From: a virus
Length of the DNA stretch: 29,851 nt
Strand: one strand, 5' to 3'
IMG/VR virus record: IMGVR_UViG_3300025276_000144
Span: 1 to 29,851 of that record
How positions within the stretch are numbered: the stretch's first letter is position 1; every line of letters begins with the position of its first letter. The notes below the pieces were generated by a model. That model did not search any database. It saw nothing but the letters and a program-made list of their open reading frames with translations, and had not been told where the DNA came from. Shown piece after piece: positions 1,963-8,744 of this stretch. A program made the position numbers and the translations under genes.

Positions 1963-2217
1963 TTACTTGTCTTTTAAAATTTGTTGTTTTACTTCTATTA
2001 ATATTTCCATGAGTTCGTCGTAAATAAGTTCACATTCTTTACTATTTCCATATAACTTTACCACTTCGTTTTCATATTGTCTTGCTACATTTATTAATCT
2101 ATTAAATTTGTATTTGATCATATTAGAATGTTTACCTTTCATCAAATAAAGTTGTTCGTGAAAACATCTAAAAGTTGCTATTAATAAGTGTACGTCTATT
2201 TCTTCTTCTTTAGTCAT
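1963..2217 (-). CDS. Hypothetical helical protein, 84 aa
   Basis: An 84-residue protein predicted by eye to be almost entirely helical, with heptad-like hydrophobic spacing from the middle to the end (YENEVVKLYGNS, then ELMEILIEVKQQIL). The ATG shares one base with the end of the upstream gene, indicating coupled translation. No family recognised. Confidence 0.75.
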   Translation of the reverse strand: MTKEEEIDVHLLIATFRCFHEQLYLMKGKHSNMIKYKFNRLINVARQYENEVVKLYGNSKECELIYDELMEILIEVKQQILKDK

Positions 2218-2612
2218 TATTTTAGTCTTTTTGCTTTATTAATCGTGTTTGCTATTAGTTTGTCGTTTTCTTTCTTTCGCAAATAAGGTTCTAAACTATT
2301 TCTTTGTCTAGCAGCTATTGCTTTCTGTTTATGTTCTTTAAGCCAAATATTCCAATTCCTTACGTTAATAAAACCACCGTTGTCTGAGTGTCTGATTCCT
2401 TGCTCTAAAGCAAAAGAAACTTCATCAATTGTATATCGTGAATAGTAATTAGCTAAGTCGTCAACTAAAAACTTGCTCATCATTACAATTTGATCTACAT
2501 CAGGTTTTTGTCCTAACATAAAATAACACTTGCTTAAAAGATCTACACAGTCAGTATTTAAGTTATTAAGATCATTTGCATATCTGTACCAAATTTGTTT
2601 AGTTTTATCCAT
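2217..2612 (-). CDS. Hypothetical early phage protein, 131 aa
   Basis: A 131-residue mostly helical protein with a conserved-looking centre (LANYYSRYTIDEVSFALEQG, then NGGFINVRNWNIWL) and a basic C-terminus (INKAKRLK). I recall this G-G-F-x-x-x-R-x-W pattern from early regions of Bacteroidetes phages and prophages, with no assigned function. Its start is in a TAATG overlap with the preceding small gene. A replication accessory role is plausible but not shown. Confidence 0.75.
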   Translation of the reverse strand: MDKTKQIWYRYANDLNNLNTDCVDLLSKCYFMLGQKPDVDQIVMMSKFLVDDLANYYSRYTIDEVSFALEQGIRHSDNGGFINVRNWNIWLKEHKQKAIAARQRNSLEPYLRKKENDKLIANTINKAKRLK

Positions 2613-2767
2613 TATCTTTTGCGTTTATCTGGTTTAGAAACTCGTTCTGAATGCCAACCAGTCATTAAATAAAATAAATCCCATTCTGTTTTTCGTTTTA
2701 CATCTTTTTTTGCTTTAGCTTTCATGATTGCTACTGTTGCTGTTGGTACTACTTTTCTATTTTCCAT
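2612..2767 (-). CDS. Small basic protein, 51 aa
   Basis: A short gene from ATG 2767 to TAA 2612. It overlaps the MazG-like gene by 11 nt at its start, and its stop forms TAATG with the next start, so it is fully embedded in the operon. The product is very basic (KAKAKKDVKRK in the middle, KPDKRKR at the end) with a short aromatic centre (WDLFYLMTGWH). A nucleic-acid-binding role is possible from charge alone. No family recognised. Confidence 0.65.
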   Translation of the reverse strand: MENRKVVPTATVAIMKAKAKKDVKRKTEWDLFYLMTGWHSERVSKPDKRKR

Positions 2768-3053
2768 CTTTAACAAATGTTCCGTTTTCCATTTTACCTG
2801 TACGCTTAGAAATTACACTGTAAGCTTCGTCAATACAATCTTCTATTTTAACCCCTCCTAAATGTGCCAAGTTAGTTAAAACTACAACACAATCTCCTAT
2901 TGCATCAATAAATTCATCTTGATCTTTATTTAAAATTGCTTTAGCTAACTCTCCTGCTTCTTCATAAAGTTTTAAAGTTTGAGTTTTAGTATCTCCTTTG
3001 GCATAGATTCCTTTGTCTTCTGCCCATTCTCTAATTAGTTCGAACTTTTCCAT
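2757..3053 (-). CDS. MazG-like nucleotide pyrophosphohydrolase
   Basis: A 98-residue all-helical protein of the MazG-like NTP pyrophosphohydrolase superfamily, which cleaves (d)NTPs to (d)NMP and pyrophosphate using Mg2+. The metal site is visible as E31-E32-A-G-E35 on one helix and E47-x2-D50 plus D54 in the IGD on the next. The length fits a single MazG domain. The gene overlaps the hydroxymethylase gene by 19 nt. Phages that replace a DNA base often encode such an enzyme to supply the dNMP substrate or to remove the unmodified dNTP, so it probably works with the hydroxymethylase. Its nucleotide specificity cannot be read from the sequence. Confidence 0.85.
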   Translation of the reverse strand: MEKFELIREWAEDKGIYAKGDTKTQTLKLYEEAGELAKAILNKDQDEFIDAIGDCVVVLTNLAHLGGVKIEDCIDEAYSVISKRTGKMENGTFVKDGK

Positions 3054-3703
3054 AATTGTTTGTTGATTATTTGATTATTGTATAAATGTAAATTTGTTGC
3101 TTGATGGTAATAAGTGCCAGGTGCAACATTTAACCTAGACGCGCACATATCTAATAGTTTTGAAAACATATATTGATCATTGCAAAAACCGAACCAGAGG
3201 TCGTTAGAACGCATGTGAACACTCATATTTAGTTTGTCTTCTACTATTTGAAATTGTATTGTCGTTGTGCATGGAGTATCATACTCGTATGTGTCTATTT
3301 CTTTACCGTCATAAATACTAATAATGCATCTTCTTGAATCTTTATCTGCAGACAAAATATTCATTACTTTATTTATCTGATCTTTCCTTAGCCATTGCCA
3401 ACCGTAATTAGATCTTACTCTTCCATCTTTGTCTGCATGTGATTCCCAAATTTTAGGAACACTTCCGTAAATCTTTCTTAATTCTTCAATGTTAGGATCT
3501 CCTGATAAATACCATTGCCATTCTGCTTCTGCATATTTTCTTGAAAACTTTCTATGCTTAGTTTTAATTACATTGTCTAATGGATTTACGATAGTAAAAC
3601 CTACATCAAATAATGCTTGAGTGTTTCCATGTTTAGTTCCTTTTAACATTATTTCTTTAAGATAATACTCAAAAGCTTCTGTTGCATTTCTAAATTTATT
3701 CAT
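3035..3703 (-). CDS. Deoxynucleotide hydroxymethylase of the thymidylate synthase fold (T4 gp42-like)
   Basis: A 222-residue enzyme of the thymidylate synthase/dNMP hydroxymethylase family, which adds a hydroxymethyl group at C5 of dCMP or dUMP using methylene-tetrahydrofolate. Landmarks in order: E61 with WYLSGDP, SNYGWQW at 98-104, SRR at 123-125 (phosphate binding), catalytic C145 in DTPC, MRSND at 164-168, FGFCND at 171-176, and H206-L-Y208. The SNYGW, DSRR, RSND and FGF-x-ND blocks match T4 dCMP hydroxymethylase as I recall it better than they match true thymidylate synthases. D176 lies 31 residues after the catalytic Cys, the same spacing as C148 to D179 in T4, where that Asp selects dCMP. 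The substrate may therefore be dCMP, but dUMP cannot be excluded. Confidence 0.88.
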   Translation of the reverse strand: MNKFRNATEAFEYYLKEIMLKGTKHGNTQALFDVGFTIVNPLDNVIKTKHRKFSRKYAEAEWQWYLSGDPNIEELRKIYGSVPKIWESHADKDGRVRSNYGWQWLRKDQINKVMNILSADKDSRRCIISIYDGKEIDTYEYDTPCTTTIQFQIVEDKLNMSVHMRSNDLWFGFCNDQYMFSKLLDMCASRLNVAPGTYYHQATNLHLYNNQIINKQLWKSSN

Positions 3704-3706
3704 TGT

Positions 3707-4603
3707 CTAATTTTTGTTTGTTAAATTTTTGTCCCAATCTCTATAAGAATCTATTGCAGATTTGTCGAATCCTTCTGGGCAAAGTAATTCACCTGCTACA
3801 TTCCAAAACCAAATATTTCTTCCTGTATTTTTAGGTATGTATTTCCATGCTTTAGCATCATAGCTTTTTACAGTATTAAAAGGTGGTAAGATCTTTTCAT
3901 TTTGTGTAAATGCTAAAGGCTCTGAAATTATATCAGTTCTTCCAAGTTCTCCTGACTTCATGTTTCTAGCAACACATACTCCTTTCATTTCTGCATGAGG
4001 CAATCCTATTTGAAGTCCTCTAGTTAAAACTCCTGTACTAACAACAGTCCACATTTCTTCTGGTTGACTATATTTCTCACATAAATTATTGCAAATCCTA
4101 ACAAATCCTGCAATAACAAATGGATGATCTAAACCAAAAGGCAAAAACTTATATCCTTTTTCTTTAGCATATTCTCTAGCAATCTTATTTAGATTAGGCA
4201 TCGCTGCTATTCTCTCAAAGAATACTTCTTTTGGTCCTTCGTTAATTACATGAGCTTGATGGTCACTAATTTCTTTACTTGAAGGCATAAACAAAACTAC
4301 TTCTTTGTTATATAGATTTGCTAATTCCATAATTGCTGTTGGAGCTAATCCAACTCTTGGTGCAACGTAAACAACTACATCTTCTTTTATTTGACTAAAG
4401 AAAAACTCTGCTGCTCTTGTTTTTGTTCCACCTCTTAAGCTTAAGTCTTCTCTTACTACTTTTACTCCATCATGCTCTTTTACTTGCAGATCAGGCAATT
4501 TGCTTACAAAGTCTTTTGTTAGTTCTAAATAAGCTTCTCTGTTTTGATAAAGCATATTTATTTCTTTATTAATTCCGTCTTTTATATGTTTGTTGTGTGC
4601 CAT
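3707..4603 (-). CDS. PLP-dependent enzyme, fold type II-like, probable DNA base modification
   Basis: A 298-residue protein resembling the tryptophan synthase beta/ACC deaminase group of PLP enzymes. The key signature is REDLSLRGGTKTR at 51-63, where K61 would form the Schiff base with PLP. A hydrophobic strand then a Gly-containing turn follows (VVYVAPRVGLAPTA), and VVSTGVLTRGL at 187-197 may be the phosphate-binding loop. The C-terminal part has PPFNTVKSYDAKAW. It lies 3 nt before the hydroxymethylase gene and follows the aGPT-like gene, so it likely acts on an amino acid or amine destined for, or attached to, the modified base. PLP enzymes of another fold type are known in 5-hmdU hypermodification pathways. 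The fold assignment is moderate and the substrate is unknown. Confidence 0.6.
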   Translation of the reverse strand: MAHNKHIKDGINKEINMLYQNREAYLELTKDFVSKLPDLQVKEHDGVKVVREDLSLRGGTKTRAAEFFFSQIKEDVVVYVAPRVGLAPTAIMELANLYNKEVVLFMPSSKEISDHQAHVINEGPKEVFFERIAAMPNLNKIAREYAKEKGYKFLPFGLDHPFVIAGFVRICNNLCEKYSQPEEMWTVVSTGVLTRGLQIGLPHAEMKGVCVARNMKSGELGRTDIISEPLAFTQNEKILPPFNTVKSYDAKAWKYIPKNTGRNIWFWNVAGELLCPEGFDKSAIDSYRDWDKNLTNKN

Positions 4604-4634
4604 TTTTATTTACTTTTTAGGTTAATTGTTTTTG

Positions 4635-5696
4635 TTATTTTAATTTGCTTGCCCAATCGTAATATTTTTCATCTCCCCATATTTGTTTTAGTATTGTATT
4701 ATTCTTATAAACTTTTCCACCGTTCTTTGCTATATGATCTTTGCTCTGATATTCTTGAAAGTATCTTACAGGATCACAAGCTCTTGAATCTTCTACGTCA
4801 TATCGTTCTGCTCCGTATCTATTAGCTAAAAATCCTAAAGCTTCATTTATAAAATCAAATTCGCTCATCTTCTTATCCTTCTTAAACAATTGCTTAATAC
4901 ACTTAGTGGCATTAGTTCCAGCGTAAACTTTACTTTTACGATTAATCAAGTTTGGATAATATTCAGCTAAGTCCATTGCAAAAGCAGTTAGTATAAAGTT
5001 TTGCCTTTTAAATCCTCTTTCCATTAACCAATCATTTCCGTAGTCTGTTATTTCGTAAATAGAAAGTCCTGGGTTTCTAGTAATATACATTAGTAATTGG
5101 TTAACAAAGTTAAAAGAATATCTTAGTATAAAGTTCTTTAAGTGTCCTTTGTTCATACCTTCAAAAGTAAATTGAGGAAGCAAATATCCTTTGTTGTTTG
5201 TAAAAGGTATGTCTCTATCTTCTAATGCTTTTAGCCAATCTTCAATGTTAAACACTCCTTGTCTTATTTGATCAATTATCCAAAAGTTACCAAAGCCATG
5301 TGTTCCCCAAGGCTCTTGAAACATTCCACTTTTTGGTTTGTAATTAATGCCTGAACCACATAGTCTAAAAGCGTAAAACAAATAAACCCACTCTAATTGT
5401 CCTAAATTAAACCTTTTAAAATTTGTAAAGAATTTACCGTTACCTTTAACGTCTTTGTCTCCATGCCATAACGCTTCTAGCAACGAAGAAAATGCAGCGT
5501 ATCGTCTATGAGTTACGTCATAAATCGGTACGTAGAAAGCAAGATCGTCATTTACTTTTAACTTTAATTCATCTAAAGAAATATTCTTTTTGTTTCCTTC
5601 AAAATAAAATTCTTGTAGCAAATCTGTCTTCCTTCCATAGTCATCCATTGCTACTAAAATATCCTCGTCAATTAGTAAATTACCTATCTTTTCCAT
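4635..5696 (-). CDS. aGPT-Pplase-like protein (amino acid:DNA transferase family)
   Basis: A 353-residue mostly helical protein that I match by motif to the alpha-glutamyl/putrescinyl thymine pyrophosphorylase group. Members join an amino acid or amine to an activated hydroxymethylpyrimidine in DNA, displacing pyrophosphate. Conserved-looking blocks are HRRYAAFSSLLEALWHG at 63-79, FRLCGSGINYK at 110-120, GTHGFGNFW at 131-139, VYAGTNATKCIK at 257-268 and YDVEDSRACDPVRYF at 299-313. It sits between the PLP-like enzyme and the SGNH-like protein, beside a hydroxymethylase, which is the expected company. It is preceded by a 146-nt structured spacer, unusual for this operon. The family call rests on recalled motifs; the acceptor base and donor are unknown. 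Confidence 0.58.
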   Translation of the reverse strand: MEKIGNLLIDEDILVAMDDYGRKTDLLQEFYFEGNKKNISLDELKLKVNDDLAFYVPIYDVTHRRYAAFSSLLEALWHGDKDVKGNGKFFTNFKRFNLGQLEWVYLFYAFRLCGSGINYKPKSGMFQEPWGTHGFGNFWIIDQIRQGVFNIEDWLKALEDRDIPFTNNKGYLLPQFTFEGMNKGHLKNFILRYSFNFVNQLLMYITRNPGLSIYEITDYGNDWLMERGFKRQNFILTAFAMDLAEYYPNLINRKSKVYAGTNATKCIKQLFKKDKKMSEFDFINEALGFLANRYGAERYDVEDSRACDPVRYFQEYQSKDHIAKNGGKVYKNNTILKQIWGDEKYYDWASKLK

Positions 5697-5842
5697 ATTT
5701 ATTTCTGTTTAGTTTTGTTAACATTTCCTTATCAAGGGTTTTTGTTCTAATAAAGCTTCGCGCATTCTCGAGTATGTATATTTACCAAATCATGCTAAAT
5801 TGCTCTACGCGCTTTATTTTATTGTCTACGAGCATTCTAGCT
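5697..5842 (-). other. Structured intergenic spacer inside the modification cluster
   Basis: A 146-nt stretch with no convincing gene in an operon where genes otherwise touch. On the transcript, arms at 5830-5841 and 5794-5805 form a 12-bp stem with one wobble and one mismatch. A second possible stem uses 5811-5818 and 5749-5756 (8 perfect pairs). Because the pairings are interleaved in space, they could be alternatives. No T-run follows, so it is not a simple terminator. Only very short frames (15-17 codons) are present. It may control expression of the aGPT-like gene. Confidence 0.35.
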
Positions 5843-6817
5843 TTAAAACAAATTTAGTTGTTTTTTGTATATAAATTCATCTGCAAAATAGTAACTATGA
5901 GGAGCCAAATGAACACTTTGTCTTGCTTCCATTACTTCAAATTTTAACATGCCATATTCGTCTGAATTCTCATCAGGCCAAGATATTAAGTCGTAGTCTT
6001 CTTGCTTACAAAGATCTTTTAAAAGGTTATTAAAAATATTAACTATGTTTGATCTTTCTTTCCATGTACCGCAGAATGGTGTCTTCATATACATTCCAGT
6101 TCCTGGTATCTTACGACTAACATCTTCAATAGCAAGTAATTCAACTAAAGTTATTTTTTTGCAATTTAGATCTCTTAACTGATCTTGTAACTTTTCGAAG
6201 TAAGTCTTAATTAAATAGTCTTTTATATTGTTTCCTTTATAGTTCCTAAGTATATGATGCCTAACGTCAATGTTACCAGCATAAAATATTAATTCATCTA
6301 AATCTGTTCTAATATTATTTTCAAGACCTTCATTTAACATTCCAAATAAAGTTTTGCCATCATTTCTATCAATACCAAAACCTGGTTTGTAAACAGAAAT
6401 TGCATGAGAATCTCCATAGACTAATTTGTTTCTGCTAAACGTTGAACCAAAACCTATTTCTTTAGTAAAATCAAAATCTATCTTCCTTTTCTCACAAAAC
6501 TCTGAGTAGTCAATGAATTCACCGTAGTTTACTACTTTACCTTTAAAACTATTTAGCTTTTCTAATTTATCTAAGATTTGACGTGTAACGCCACCAAACA
6601 AATTGTATTGACCCATCTTATAGTTTACACCTTCATTAATAATTAACATCTCACATTGATCCCAATCATCTTTATCGGTCATAATTTTAACCTCACAGTC
6701 AAACTCGTTTTCAGCAATGCTTTTTATTACCATTGTCCAACCGCCGTTATGACTTGTTATTTTTTTTGCTGGGTTAGATAATATTCCAACCATTCCAATT
6801 ACTTTTTTACTTTGCAT
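5843..6817 (-). CDS. SGNH/GDSL-hydrolase-like protein of the modification cluster
   Basis: A 324-residue protein. The C-terminal two-thirds carry SGNH-type blocks: GDSH at 135-138 (S137 as nucleophile), GNID at 181-184 (N182), and a late His (H303 in VHLAPH). The first 130 residues form a separate alpha/beta-looking region beginning VIGMVGILSNP that I cannot assign. SGNH enzymes hydrolyse or transfer acyl groups on sugars, lipids or other small groups. Here the gene leads the modification cluster and overlaps the upstream gene by 11 nt, so trimming or acylating the modified base or its donor is a reasonable guess. An unrelated small-molecule hydrolase is also possible. Confidence 0.5.
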   Translation of the reverse strand: MQSKKVIGMVGILSNPAKKITSHNGGWTMVIKSIAENEFDCEVKIMTDKDDWDQCEMLIINEGVNYKMGQYNLFGGVTRQILDKLEKLNSFKGKVVNYGEFIDYSEFCEKRKIDFDFTKEIGFGSTFSRNKLVYGDSHAISVYKPGFGIDRNDGKTLFGMLNEGLENNIRTDLDELIFYAGNIDVRHHILRNYKGNNIKDYLIKTYFEKLQDQLRDLNCKKITLVELLAIEDVSRKIPGTGMYMKTPFCGTWKERSNIVNIFNNLLKDLCKQEDYDLISWPDENSDEYGMLKFEVMEARQSVHLAPHSYYFADEFIYKKQLNLF

Positions 6818-7229
6818 CTTTTTTAATTTTAATCATTATTGTATCGTCTCCTTGTCTATAATCTGCTGGCATAACTATTTCTCCAGTGTCTGTATCTACA
6901 ACAGCTTCTCCTCTTTCATGTGCTTTATATGCAGATTGATGCTTTTGTTTCAACATTTTTAGATCGTATTCTAAATTAACTACCTCAGCAATATGATCGT
7001 AGTTCCATCTTCCAGCTGATTTCTTAAGAGTAATACTAGCACCTAACATTTCTACTCCTGTTTTAGATTCGTTATTGTATTTAGATATTTCTTCTATTGC
7101 TAGATCTTTTATTTTCTTTTTAACTTCTTTAGCTAGATCTTCTAACTTTTTAAGCATAATAAAAGCCTCTAACGGATTTAAGTTACCTTGTAAGACTTGA
7201 TCTTCTAATAATTTAATCTCTTGCTTCAT
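6807..7229 (-). CDS. Conserved phage protein with N-terminal coiled coil, 140 aa
   Basis: A 140-residue protein with a helical, heptad-like N-terminal half (NPLEAFIMLKKLEDLAKEV) and a C-terminal half ending with a conserved-looking patch (DTGEIVMPADYRQGDDTIMI). I recall similar proteins from Bacteroidetes prophages in early replication and recombination regions, with no known function. It is the first gene after the palindrome-rich non-coding gap at 7230-7397, so it may be the first gene expressed from a control region there. Confidence 0.75.
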   Translation of the reverse strand: MKQEIKLLEDQVLQGNLNPLEAFIMLKKLEDLAKEVKKKIKDLAIEEISKYNNESKTGVEMLGASITLKKSAGRWNYDHIAEVVNLEYDLKMLKQKHQSAYKAHERGEAVVDTDTGEIVMPADYRQGDDTIMIKIKKDAK

Positions 7230-7397
7230 AATTTATTTATTGTTGCTTAGTTATTACCTAGGGATTACTCCCTAGGCTTTAACTCCCAAATTGAACTAAT
7301 TTTAAAAACGATAACTGAAAAAAAGTTTCTCATAATAAAATTATGTTCGTACTATCAAACCGATGATAGCACTAAGAACTTCTGAAGTTAAAGTGAT
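7230..7397 (-). other. Palindrome-rich non-coding region, candidate origin or regulatory RNA
   Basis: A 168-nt gap holding consecutive inverted repeats: AACTTC/GAAGTT at 7377-7389 (1-nt centre), GTGCTATCA/TGATAGTAC at 7349-7372 (9 pairs with one G-T, loop 6), ATAAT/ATTAT at 7332-7344, and a perfect CCTAGGGA/TCCCTAGG at 7257-7276 (loop 4). An A/T-rich tract lies between them. No poly-T follows the strong hairpin, so it is not an intrinsic terminator for the minus strand. It sits among replication genes (DnaA domain IV-like, wHTH, SSB-like), so a replication origin or a structured 5' leader are the main options. Confidence 0.5.
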
Positions 7398-7670
7398 TCA
7401 GTCACTTTCTTTTTTTTGCATGTAATTATTTAAAGAACCTAAATAAGCAACAGCATCTAACAAATTATCTTCTTTGTAGTTATAACTATGTCTTGATAGT
7501 TTTAACGCAACCATGCATGCGTAAACATCTTCAGCGGTAAAATCTTTGCCTGTCATGCCTTTCGCTATATAAGCTGCTCTGTCCATTCCTTTTTCAAAAG
7601 GTCCGTACATTCTTTCTTTCTCTTGTTTTCGATCGTTAATGATCTCATCTGCTTTTTTTAAAATATTCAT
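7398..7670 (-). CDS. DUF6378-type phage protein
   Basis: A 90-residue helical protein that matches a phage family I recall as DUF6378: R-Q-x-x-x-x-x-Y-G near the N-terminus (RKQEKERMYG), then a block equivalent to V-x-x-x-M-V-A-L-K-L-S-R at about 48-60, then DNLLDAVAYLG near the end. The function is unknown; it is usually seen among nucleotide- or DNA-metabolism genes of phages. It starts 2 nt after the wHTH replication gene and is followed by the palindrome-rich gap. Confidence 0.7.
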   Translation of the reverse strand: MNILKKADEIINDRKQEKERMYGPFEKGMDRAAYIAKGMTGKDFTAEDVYACMVALKLSRHSYNYKEDNLLDAVAYLGSLNNYMQKKESD

Positions 7671-7672
7671 CT

Positions 7673-8335
7673 CTATTTGTTTATTAGTTTACGTGCTTCT
7701 TGCCAATTATCTAAAGTTGTTTCAACTTTGCTTTTCTTAGAATCATTTTTTGAATTTCTCATCCATCTTTGTATTCTTCTTTTAATATCAAAACTGCTTT
7801 GCTTTTCCCAACGTGCTTTTTTATCGTTATGTGATTTTTCAGTCCAATAATCAATAAAATTTTCACCATCTTTAAAATCTAATTCAACAACTAACTTTAA
7901 AACTTCAATTCTAAAACTATCTTCTTTATTAATATTATTTAGTTTTATTAAGTTATTAGTTTTATCAGTACTTAGTAGTGTCTCGTTTTCAACGTGTTGA
8001 ATTTCAACGTTAGGCTTTTCAACATGTTGCTTTTCAATAAGTGACTTTGGCTTCTCGTAAACTATATACTCATGTAAGACTATTTTACCATTTTTACGAT
8101 TAACAACTCTCTCTACGTAACCAAGTTTTTTTAATTCTTTAAATGCAGTGTAAATAGATCCTCTCCCATCAGTATGCCAATTAGCAACTTCTTCAACATA
8201 TAAAACCCAATCAGCAGGCAAAGCTAACAAGTGACACAATAAACCTTTAGCTTTTAAACTCATGTCTTTATTAAAAATAAATTCATTATTTATAACAGTA
8301 AAGTTTGTGTCCTTTATAACTTTAATTCTATTCAT
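7673..8335 (-). CDS. Winged-helix replication protein, DnaD-like organisation
   Basis: A 220-residue protein. The N-terminal 90 residues look like a winged helix-turn-helix of the replication-initiator type: FIFNKDMSLKAKGLLCHLLALP, then a recognition region (RGSIYTAFKELKKLGYVER) and a beta-wing (NGKIVLHEYIVYEKP). A polar linker follows, then a C-terminal helical domain with Trp-rich segments (FIDYWTEKSH, then RIQRWMRNS). The two-domain layout fits phage origin-binding or helicase-loading proteins. It overlaps the DnaA domain IV-like gene by 8 nt, which supports a shared job in initiation. No helicase gene is visible, so it probably recruits the host helicase. Confidence 0.7.
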   Translation of the reverse strand: MNRIKVIKDTNFTVINNEFIFNKDMSLKAKGLLCHLLALPADWVLYVEEVANWHTDGRGSIYTAFKELKKLGYVERVVNRKNGKIVLHEYIVYEKPKSLIEKQHVEKPNVEIQHVENETLLSTDKTNNLIKLNNINKEDSFRIEVLKLVVELDFKDGENFIDYWTEKSHNDKKARWEKQSSFDIKRRIQRWMRNSKNDSKKSKVETTLDNWQEARKLINK

Positions 8336-8744
8336 TGCTTAATATCTTAGAGTTAATATCTTCAAGTCTTTTTTGATAGTACTCTTTTTCTTTAAGTAAT
8401 AACCTTTGCGTAGAGAATTGATCACTATCTGCTAAAATTAATTCCATGATTTGTCTATAACGTGCTTCGTAATTTTTATCTAAGACAACTAGCTTATCAT
8501 GTTCACGAATTTGATGAATTATAGTAGCGTGATTCTTTCCAAAGTATTTACCCATAACTAATAAGCTATATCCATATATGTCCCTAACTAATTTGTAAAT
8601 CATTTTTCTTGCATCGACAGTATGTCTAAGTCTAGATTTACTTATTAATTCTTTCTTTTTTATACCAGAATTGTATGAAACAGCATTTACAATATTGTCC
8701 ATATTTCTATTCCTAGTTAATTCTATTTCTTTATCAAAATCCAT
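8328..8744 (-). CDS. DnaA domain IV-like DNA-binding protein
   Basis: A 138-residue protein with a region that closely resembles the C-terminal DNA-binding domain of DnaA. SRLRHTVDARKMIYKLVRD at 37-55 matches the DnaA S-(K/R)-x-R-x-x-V-x-x-R-x-x-x-x-x-L-x-R-(E/D) helix, and MGKYFGKNHATIIHQI at 64-79 matches the G-R-x-F-G-x-(R/K)-(D/N)-H-x-T-(V/I)-x-H signature. There is no AAA+ ATPase domain. A coiled-coil-like tail follows (LLLKEKEYYQKRLEDI). It could bind DnaA-box-like sites at a phage origin or compete with host DnaA. Neighbouring wHTH and SSB-like genes support a replication role. Confidence 0.82.
   Translation of the reverse strand: MDFDKEIELTRNRNMDNIVNAVSYNSGIKKKELISKSRLRHTVDARKMIYKLVRDIYGYSLLVMGKYFGKNHATIIHQIREHDKLVVLDKNYEARYRQIMELILADSDQFSTQRLLLKEKEYYQKRLEDINSKILSNE

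Follow-up and report, generated by a model that had tools for sequence, protein, structure and literature searches.

A conserved phage cassette with a predicted dCMP hydroxymethylase and a proposed route to an amino-acid-derived cytosine

In phage T4, hydroxymethylated cytosine (hmC) is made before its incorporation into DNA and is decorated afterwards. Amino-acid-derived decoration of DNA is, to our knowledge, so far limited to thymine. The hmU systems proceed through a phosphorylated intermediate that is made by a DNA kinase (PMC6449724). Searches of open-access papers did not find a system in which a dCMP hydroxymethylase and an amino acid:DNA transferase are joined; an earlier prediction of parts of the cassette described here is possible.

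The sequence studied, referred to as the window, is the complete linear IMG/VR record IMGVR_UViG_3300025276_000144 of an uncultured phage, comprising 29,851 bases with a G+C content of 32 %, and this record may itself be a fragment. A near relative was not found by megablast of the first 24,999 bases against the phage collection. The cassette lies entirely on the minus strand in the gene order P0006, a 140-aa ORF, P0004, P0003, P0002, P0001 and P0005. With a probability of roughly two in three, P0001 is proposed to be a dCMP hydroxymethylase whose reaction would be the first committed one on the way of the phage to a hypermodified, amino-acid-derived cytosine in DNA. The features are as follows.

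2757..3053, minus strand: P0005, MazG/PRA-PH pyrophosphohydrolase, candidate dCTP pyrophosphatase (PF03819, 3.5e-8; PF01503, 1.7e-6)
3035..3703, minus strand: P0001, predicted dCMP-type hydroxymethylase with thymidylate synthase (TS) fold, 222 aa, ATG start (PF00303, 3.4e-29, and alignment)
3176..3178, minus strand: codon of D176, the position selecting between dCMP and dUMP (sequence and alignment)
3269..3271, minus strand: codon of the catalytic C145 (sequence and alignment)
3707..4603, minus strand: P0002, PALP-type (fold type II) PLP-dependent enzyme, 298 aa (phrog_7093, 4.3e-35)
4635..5696, minus strand: P0003, helical protein with an amino acid:DNA transferase-like fold, 353 aa (AlphaFold2, BFVD and PDB)
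5843..6817, minus strand: P0004, two-domain protein, 324 aa (AlphaFold2 and family alignment)
5879..6433, minus strand: P0004 residues 129-313, SGNH/GDSL catalytic domain with S137 (GDSH) and H303 (Foldseek, VIA)
6518..6817, minus strand: P0004 residues 1-100, similar to the N-terminal part of T4 beta-glucosyltransferase (hhalign)
7398..7670, minus strand: P0006, DUF6378 (PF19905, 6.8e-13)

The start of P0005 overlaps the end of P0001. Within window positions 2217-7670, the 22 bases 5' of the cassette starts are A-rich without a clear AGGAGG motif, which is the expectation for Bacteroidota hosts. A phage protein at 8328-8744 contains a DnaA C-terminal DNA-binding domain (E 5.8e-14).

Base selection by the hydroxymethylase

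P0001 carries C145, T146 and D176 with a Cys-Asp spacing of 31. The initial annotation had pointed out this spacing, its identity with that of T4 gp42 and the Asn of thymidylate synthases at the selecting position. The ORF on the minus strand is real, the numbering is correct, and these observations were borne out by an alignment for which TS-fold genes were located in nine named phage records and then aligned with P0001. The pattern C-T...D with a spacing of 31 is common to P0001 and the gp42 proteins of T4, 44RR and Aeromonas 25. Canonical synthases align as C-H...N, with the T4 td row being a fragment without the column, and the enzymes of SPO1, ViI, W-14 and M6, phages with hmU-derived DNA, show C-N...N with a spacing of 32-33. 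PTm1 encodes a canonical synthase and, in addition, a C-I...D protein. A PDB sequence search with P0001 returned a thymidylate synthase first (5.2e-19) and T4 dCMP hydroxymethylase second (1.1e-18). The closest hydroxymethylase of a named phage is that of BF503P2 (45 %), which has a dUTPase and two TS-fold proteins with Asp.

As in the T4 gp42 type, P0001 has Asp at the N177/D179 position with the Cys 31 residues before, and it lacks the Asn that marks the dUMP hydroxymethylases of SPO1, ViI, M6 and W-14. Characterized dUMP hydroxymethylases sharing the FGF-x-ND motif would argue against the use of dCMP; Asn was found in 4/4 of these enzymes and the motif in 0/4, so that the prediction stands. 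Also present in P0001 are MRSND and DSRR, whose Ser and Arg mark deoxy-substrates rather than CMP. PMC5175136 names the Ser of MRS and the Arg as deoxy-substrate residues, replaced by Ala and Lys in MilA, and gives the Asp as common to MilA, BcmA and T4 CH and the Asn as present in TS and dUMP hydroxymethylase. PMC8670742 reports Asp at the selecting position in synthases of contigs with modified cytosine. Both sources, as well as the alignment with T4 gp42, SPO1 and ViI, agree with the annotation in taking the Asp as a sign of dCMP use. Judged from its sequence, P0001 almost certainly builds hydroxymethylated cytosine, and dCMP is well supported as the substrate.

Asp conservation and gene linkage in viral contigs

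Viral contigs were scanned with family alignments, which gave 161 P0004 and 135 P0003 relatives; a first scan with the single P0004 sequence had yielded 0. Of each, 80 were kept; the set comprised 164 loci or, together with the window, 165 sequences. Since these loci were picked by P0003 or P0004, the information lies mainly in the other families being present, and the counts refer to loci rather than to independent events. A third scan with P0002 alone found at least 589 relatives, of which 80 were kept; these provided 77 new loci, at least three of them on contigs of the earlier set.

The Asp is not a chance occurrence. The 164 loci and the window contain 139 TS-fold ORFs, comprising 92 of the C-T-D, 35 of the C-N-D and 8 of the C-H-N type and 4 fragments lacking the columns. 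When L005-L011 (the window's own copy and the named phage records) and the four fragments are left out, 111 distinct sequences remain (75 C-T-D, 29 C-N-D, 7 C-H-N). Asp is present in 104/104 distinct cassette hydroxymethylases, which form 27 clusters at 70 % (25 T-D, 2 N-D). The distinct Asn proteins are in 7/7 cases separate canonical synthases of 309-382 aa, and the same loci also hold a short Asp enzyme; eight loci in total carry such a second, longer TS-fold protein. The subclade of L002, L109 and their relatives, with 29 distinct sequences, combines an Asn after the Cys, as in dUMP enzymes, with the dCMP-type Asp. In this subclade, dCMP is less sure as the substrate. Among the P0002-fetched loci, representing 80 kept of at least 589 relatives, all 47 hydroxymethylases are of the C-T-D type.

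All six families occur in 79/165 sequences, and the order of the window, 6-4-3-2-1-5, is the commonest one (53 loci). P0006, which heads this order, was found in 151/165 sequences and P0005 in 84/165. In each of the 117 loci with the triad of P0002, P0003 and P0004 and a hydroxymethylase, all of these genes lie on one strand. The triad is complete in 136/158 loci and, in the P0002-fetched set, in 65/77. For the latter set (80 kept of at least 589 relatives), P0003 is present in 70/77, P0004 in 72/77 and a hydroxymethylase in 47/77 loci, and many of these loci are T4-like (uvsX, gp45, gp44). Absences mean little, as many loci are short fragments. Where at least 4.5 kb follow P0003, a TS-fold gene is present in 74/76 loci; the two loci in which a hydroxymethylase was not found over this distance, L088 and L089, look like one lineage given their matching hit lists. 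The prediction of the annotation that this cluster would make a hypermodified cytosine if the enzyme uses dCMP is well backed by the linkage and co-conservation.

Several further genes were observed near the cassette. These include dCMP deaminase (48 loci) and dUTPase (47 loci), both of which T4 has as well, and chaperonin cpn60 (31 loci) and HSP20 (26 loci), e.g. at L105:3939-5561 and L107:763-1191. A gene of about 295 aa without a Pfam match, at L286:5117-6001 and in 34 other P0002 loci, often lies between P0003 and P0002 on T4-like contigs.

In a tree of 45 hand-picked rows, the dUMP enzymes cluster with the synthases (97/81), and 6/7 hydroxymethylases of the P0002-fetched set join T4 gp42 (100/100). 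P0001 sits in another group than T4 gp42, and the same triad thus accompanies two Asp-type lineages, one of which is of the true T4 type. Some placements are unsure owing to the long branches of PTm1, BF503P2_36 and W-14.

These data bear on two other explanations. P0001 could hydroxymethylate dUMP, with the cassette being another thymidine hypermodification system, as thymidine pathways are known to include proteins related to P0003 by fold and to P0002 by sequence. The dCMP deaminase and dUTPase neighbors would also suit a dUMP route and count to that extent against the cytosine pathway. This explanation is nevertheless extremely unlikely, with Asn in 4/4 dUMP enzymes versus Asp in 104/104 cassette enzymes and a separate tree group of dUMP enzymes and synthases. 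The hmU reading of the cassette was rejected on Asp conservation and tree grouping. It is also highly improbable that the phage makes plain hmC as in T4 but lacks glucosylation, with P0002-P0004 being unrelated neighbors: these genes show strong joint conservation, a single strand and fusions, although in Bacteroides phage BF503P2 a related Asp enzyme occurs with no P0002-P0004 in the 16.6 kb examined.

The proteins accompanying the hydroxymethylase

P0002 can be assigned to the PALP family (fold type II) by a profile match and the PLP lysine. The PALP match of P0002 itself (0.0012) is below the Pfam cut-off, and that of the homolog in L001 (1.5e-8) reaches 34.8 bits compared to a cut-off of 35; K61 is invariant in 23/23 aligned members. 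A match to cysteine synthase was found at 0.0055. Among 435 control ORFs of T4, ViI and M6, the P0002 profile matched a single one, which in M6 directly follows the ADDT gene, and this match is weak (E 6e-6; hhalign prob 52.6). P0002-like matches in L010 (Microcystis phage Mae-JY30) and L011 (an Erythrobacter phage) fall within or next to genes with the annotation ParB/sulfiredoxin or DNA modification methylase.

For P0003, an AlphaFold2 model with a pLDDT of 91.6 was compared with BFVD and the PDB. In BFVD, it matched entries named 'Amino acid:DNA transferase domain' at 3.2e-13 (TMq 0.76) and 2.0e-4; two nearer rows are unnamed, and a W-14 hmU DNA kinase helical domain protein matched weakly (0.14). 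In the PDB, an AGOG glycosylase (Z 8.6), a queuine salvage enzyme (8.3) and PUGT (8z2m), a glycinyltransferase of phage origin (8.0), were tied. The match to 8z2m (rmsd 4.4, 207 aligned) is in agreement with an ADDT fold, although its Z is tied with that of AGOG glycosylases, and a Z of this size can come from a common arrangement of helical proteins. The PDB list is a re-look at Foldseek's own matches, so that the absence of a family from it carries no meaning.

Sequence searches gave a different picture. The ADDT model (PF18724) matched 0/10 IMG/VR records including the window, with 3/3 positive controls matched, and was absent from the families matched by 42 P0003 members. HMUDK_hel (PF18723) was above its cut-off in ViI, M6, W-14 and G003, was not found in the window and matched 1/42 P0003 members (E 0.031). 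Profile-to-profile comparison of P0003 with ADDT and HMUDK_hel gave no match, a name for P0003 was not found via Pfam, PHROGs, NCBIfam, phage tblastn or PDB profile search, and a relative was not found by hhalign among the 435 ORFs of T4, ViI and M6. One scan of bacterial genomes with the P0003 alignment produced 237 pattern matches and 0 relatives. The neighbor that the annotation had called 'aGPT-Pplase-type' can be upheld at the level of the fold and not by sequence searches.

P0004 has a model with a pLDDT of 92.1 and consists of two parts. Residues 5-100 align with residues 1-99 of T4 beta-glucosyltransferase (hhalign prob 87.5, E 3.6e-6), which ranked first of the 435 ORFs with a score of 48.6, followed by 26.6 for the next. 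The corresponding family PF09198 touches 5/39 P0004 members (best 2.2e-4), with one located case at residues 30-92 (E 0.066). The similarity is confined to residues 5-100 and does not extend to the UDP-glucose half, as the rest of the protein is SGNH. The SGNH domain at residues 129-313 was found by Foldseek (6.9e-6) and VIA (Z 13.6, rmsd 3.0, 163 aligned), and it has the fold, the GDS serine and the block V histidine of SGNH/GDSL proteins. GDSH and H303 are conserved in 214/214 and N182 in 207/214 family sequences. The SGNH block V motif is DxxH. P0004 departs from it, with the position -3 from the His occupied by Q (157), K (29), S (24) or R (3) in the 214 sequences. E297 is conserved in 213/214 and may stand in for the absent Asp.

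Outside the cassette, relatives of P0004 were found in 43 phage records (38 Aeromonas, 3 Tenacibaculum and 2 Stenotrophomonas). The three genomes checked, 44RR, Aeromonas 25 and PTm1, each contain a P0004 relative, an Asp-type enzyme and a separate synthase. P0004 is fused to P0003 in L050, L054 and L133, and in 44RR to a domain with a weak HMUDK_hel match (E 0.0036; 4.1e-4). Based on this domain linkage to hmC phages, the interpretation of P0004 as a plain lipase was rejected. Glycine receptors returned by a PDB sequence search with the P0004 profile were discarded as chance-level matches.

The surroundings of these homologs vary. In Aeromonas phage 25 (L007:2764-4945), the two genes just upstream resemble, by eye, a UDP-galactopyranose mutase and a glycosyltransferase, and these sugar-enzyme-like neighbors suggest a possible sugar on hmC there. 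A gene annotated as sodium:solute symporter-like is directly 5' of the fusion gene in 44RR2.8t (L006:4366-5889), and the PTm1 homolog lies between ribonucleotide reductase genes (L009:8968-9984).

A rather unlikely alternative is that hmC is made and then modified without an amino acid. P0004 would O-acylate hmC or remove such a group, P0003 would be a base-flipping helper, a kinase or glycosylase-like, and P0002 would only make a metabolite. SGNH folds do include O-acyltransferases, e.g. PatB, an AGOG glycosylase is among the PDB matches of P0003 (Z 8.6), and P0004 also occurs without P0003 or P0002 nearby, for example in Aeromonas phage 25. Against this, the BFVD matches of P0003 are named as amino acid:DNA transferase and not as glycosylase, the three genes keep together in the loci counted above, and a transferase and a PLP gene are paired in M6.

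Proposed pathway and relation to known systems

In the proposed amino-acid pathway, P0005 (MazG-type) would lower dCTP and yield dCMP, which P0001 would convert to 5-hydroxymethyl-dCMP with Asp176 selecting cytosine, a step with strong comparative support. As in T4, kinases would then provide hmdCTP, and replication would incorporate hmC into DNA. P0004 may bind hmC in DNA via its beta-glucosyltransferase-like domain, and its SGNH Ser/His center would act on the hmC hydroxyl, probably by acyl transfer. Judging from fold and gene order, P0003 would place an amino acid on the 5-methylene. P0002 would trim or convert that amino acid or make the donor, in line with the related gene after the ADDT gene in M6. 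The predicted end product is an amino-acid-derived cytosine shielding the phage DNA.

It was also considered that P0001 is a dCMP methylase giving 5-methyl-dCMP, which is very unlikely. The Asp selects cytosine and not the fate of the methylene, and phage Xp12 has a dCMP methylase making 5-methyl-dCMP. Liu and Santi, cited in PMC8670742, reportedly turned a thymidylate synthase into a dCMP methylase by an Asn-to-Asp exchange in 1992, which counts for such an activity. However, all proposed downstream steps need the hydroxyl, the N-terminus of P0004 resembles an hmC glucosyltransferase, and in the tree the cassette enzymes of T4-like contigs are placed with T4 gp42.

How the hydroxyl of hmC would be activated is a separate question. 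A hmU DNA kinase profile, built including 44RR and L083, matched only those two among the 165 sequences and 0/77 P0002-fetched loci. Since this kinase was not found with most cassettes, P0004 is the obvious candidate for the activating step. In the resulting kinase-free route, which is put forward tentatively and is possible rather than probable, P0004 would esterify hmC in DNA as a leaving group, P0003 would swap in the amino acid and P0002 would finish the side chain. If true, this would amount to a new mode of base activation in DNA and to a new cytosine class, distributed over hundreds of uncultured phages, both small and T4-like. A 519-aa protein at L083:10717-12273 exceeds the cut-off of the Pfam model for the helical domain of hmU DNA kinase and is a possible candidate for an hmC DNA kinase; P0004 and an Asp-type hydroxymethylase (6233-7060) were seen on the same contig, and P0002 and P0003 were not.

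Several findings count against the amino-acid pathway as a whole. P0003 is without a sequence match to ADDT or HMUDK_hel and is tied with 8-oxoguanine glycosylases in the PDB, one subclade of the hydroxymethylases has Asn after the Cys, P0004 exists elsewhere without its partners, the match of P0002 to M6 is weak, and 2/76 loci with room downstream lack a hydroxymethylase.

If correct, the amino-acid pathway ties transferase-like and PLP genes to cytosine in well over a hundred loci and in two hydroxymethylase lineages. It would mean a further class of modified cytosine that likely resists restriction and Cas enzymes, would supply enzymes able to label hmC and would assign a function to the P0004 gene that is 'hypothetical' in T4-like phages of Aeromonas. 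Some members of this phage group were already suspected of having unknown base-modifying proteins (PMC8056088). The linkage of the cassette makes the pathway directly testable in cultured phages. Among these, 44RR2.8t, Aeromonas 25 and Tenacibaculum phage PTm1 resemble the cassette in having a P0004 homolog and an Asp-type hydroxymethylase, whereas homologs of P0003 and P0002 were not found in stretches of 11-19 kb each.

The thymidine hypermodification systems of M6, ViI and W-14, with hmU DNA kinase, amino acid:DNA transferase and PLP enzymes, resemble the cassette in combining a hydroxymethylase of TS fold with a PLP gene and a helical protein that is transferase-like. In contrast to the window, their hydroxymethylases have Asn (dUMP), and HMUDK_hel and ADDT match all three; the P0004 profile gave no match in M6 and ViI. 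The system of a carbamoyltransferase and a dCMP hydroxymethylase making 5-carbamoyloxymethyl-dC (PMC8670742) is similar in its Asp-type enzyme and its PRA-PH/MazG and dCMP deaminase partners and differs in decorating enzymes of other folds. A carbamoyltransferase was not found among the scanned cassette and neighbor proteins. T4 gp42 is like P0001 in the Asp selector, the spacing of 31, the C-T at the catalytic Cys and the Ser in MRSND. Compared to T4 beta-glucosyltransferase, P0004 has an SGNH domain as its catalytic half instead of the sugar-nucleotide half, and compared to T4 as a whole, the cassette adds P0003 and P0002.
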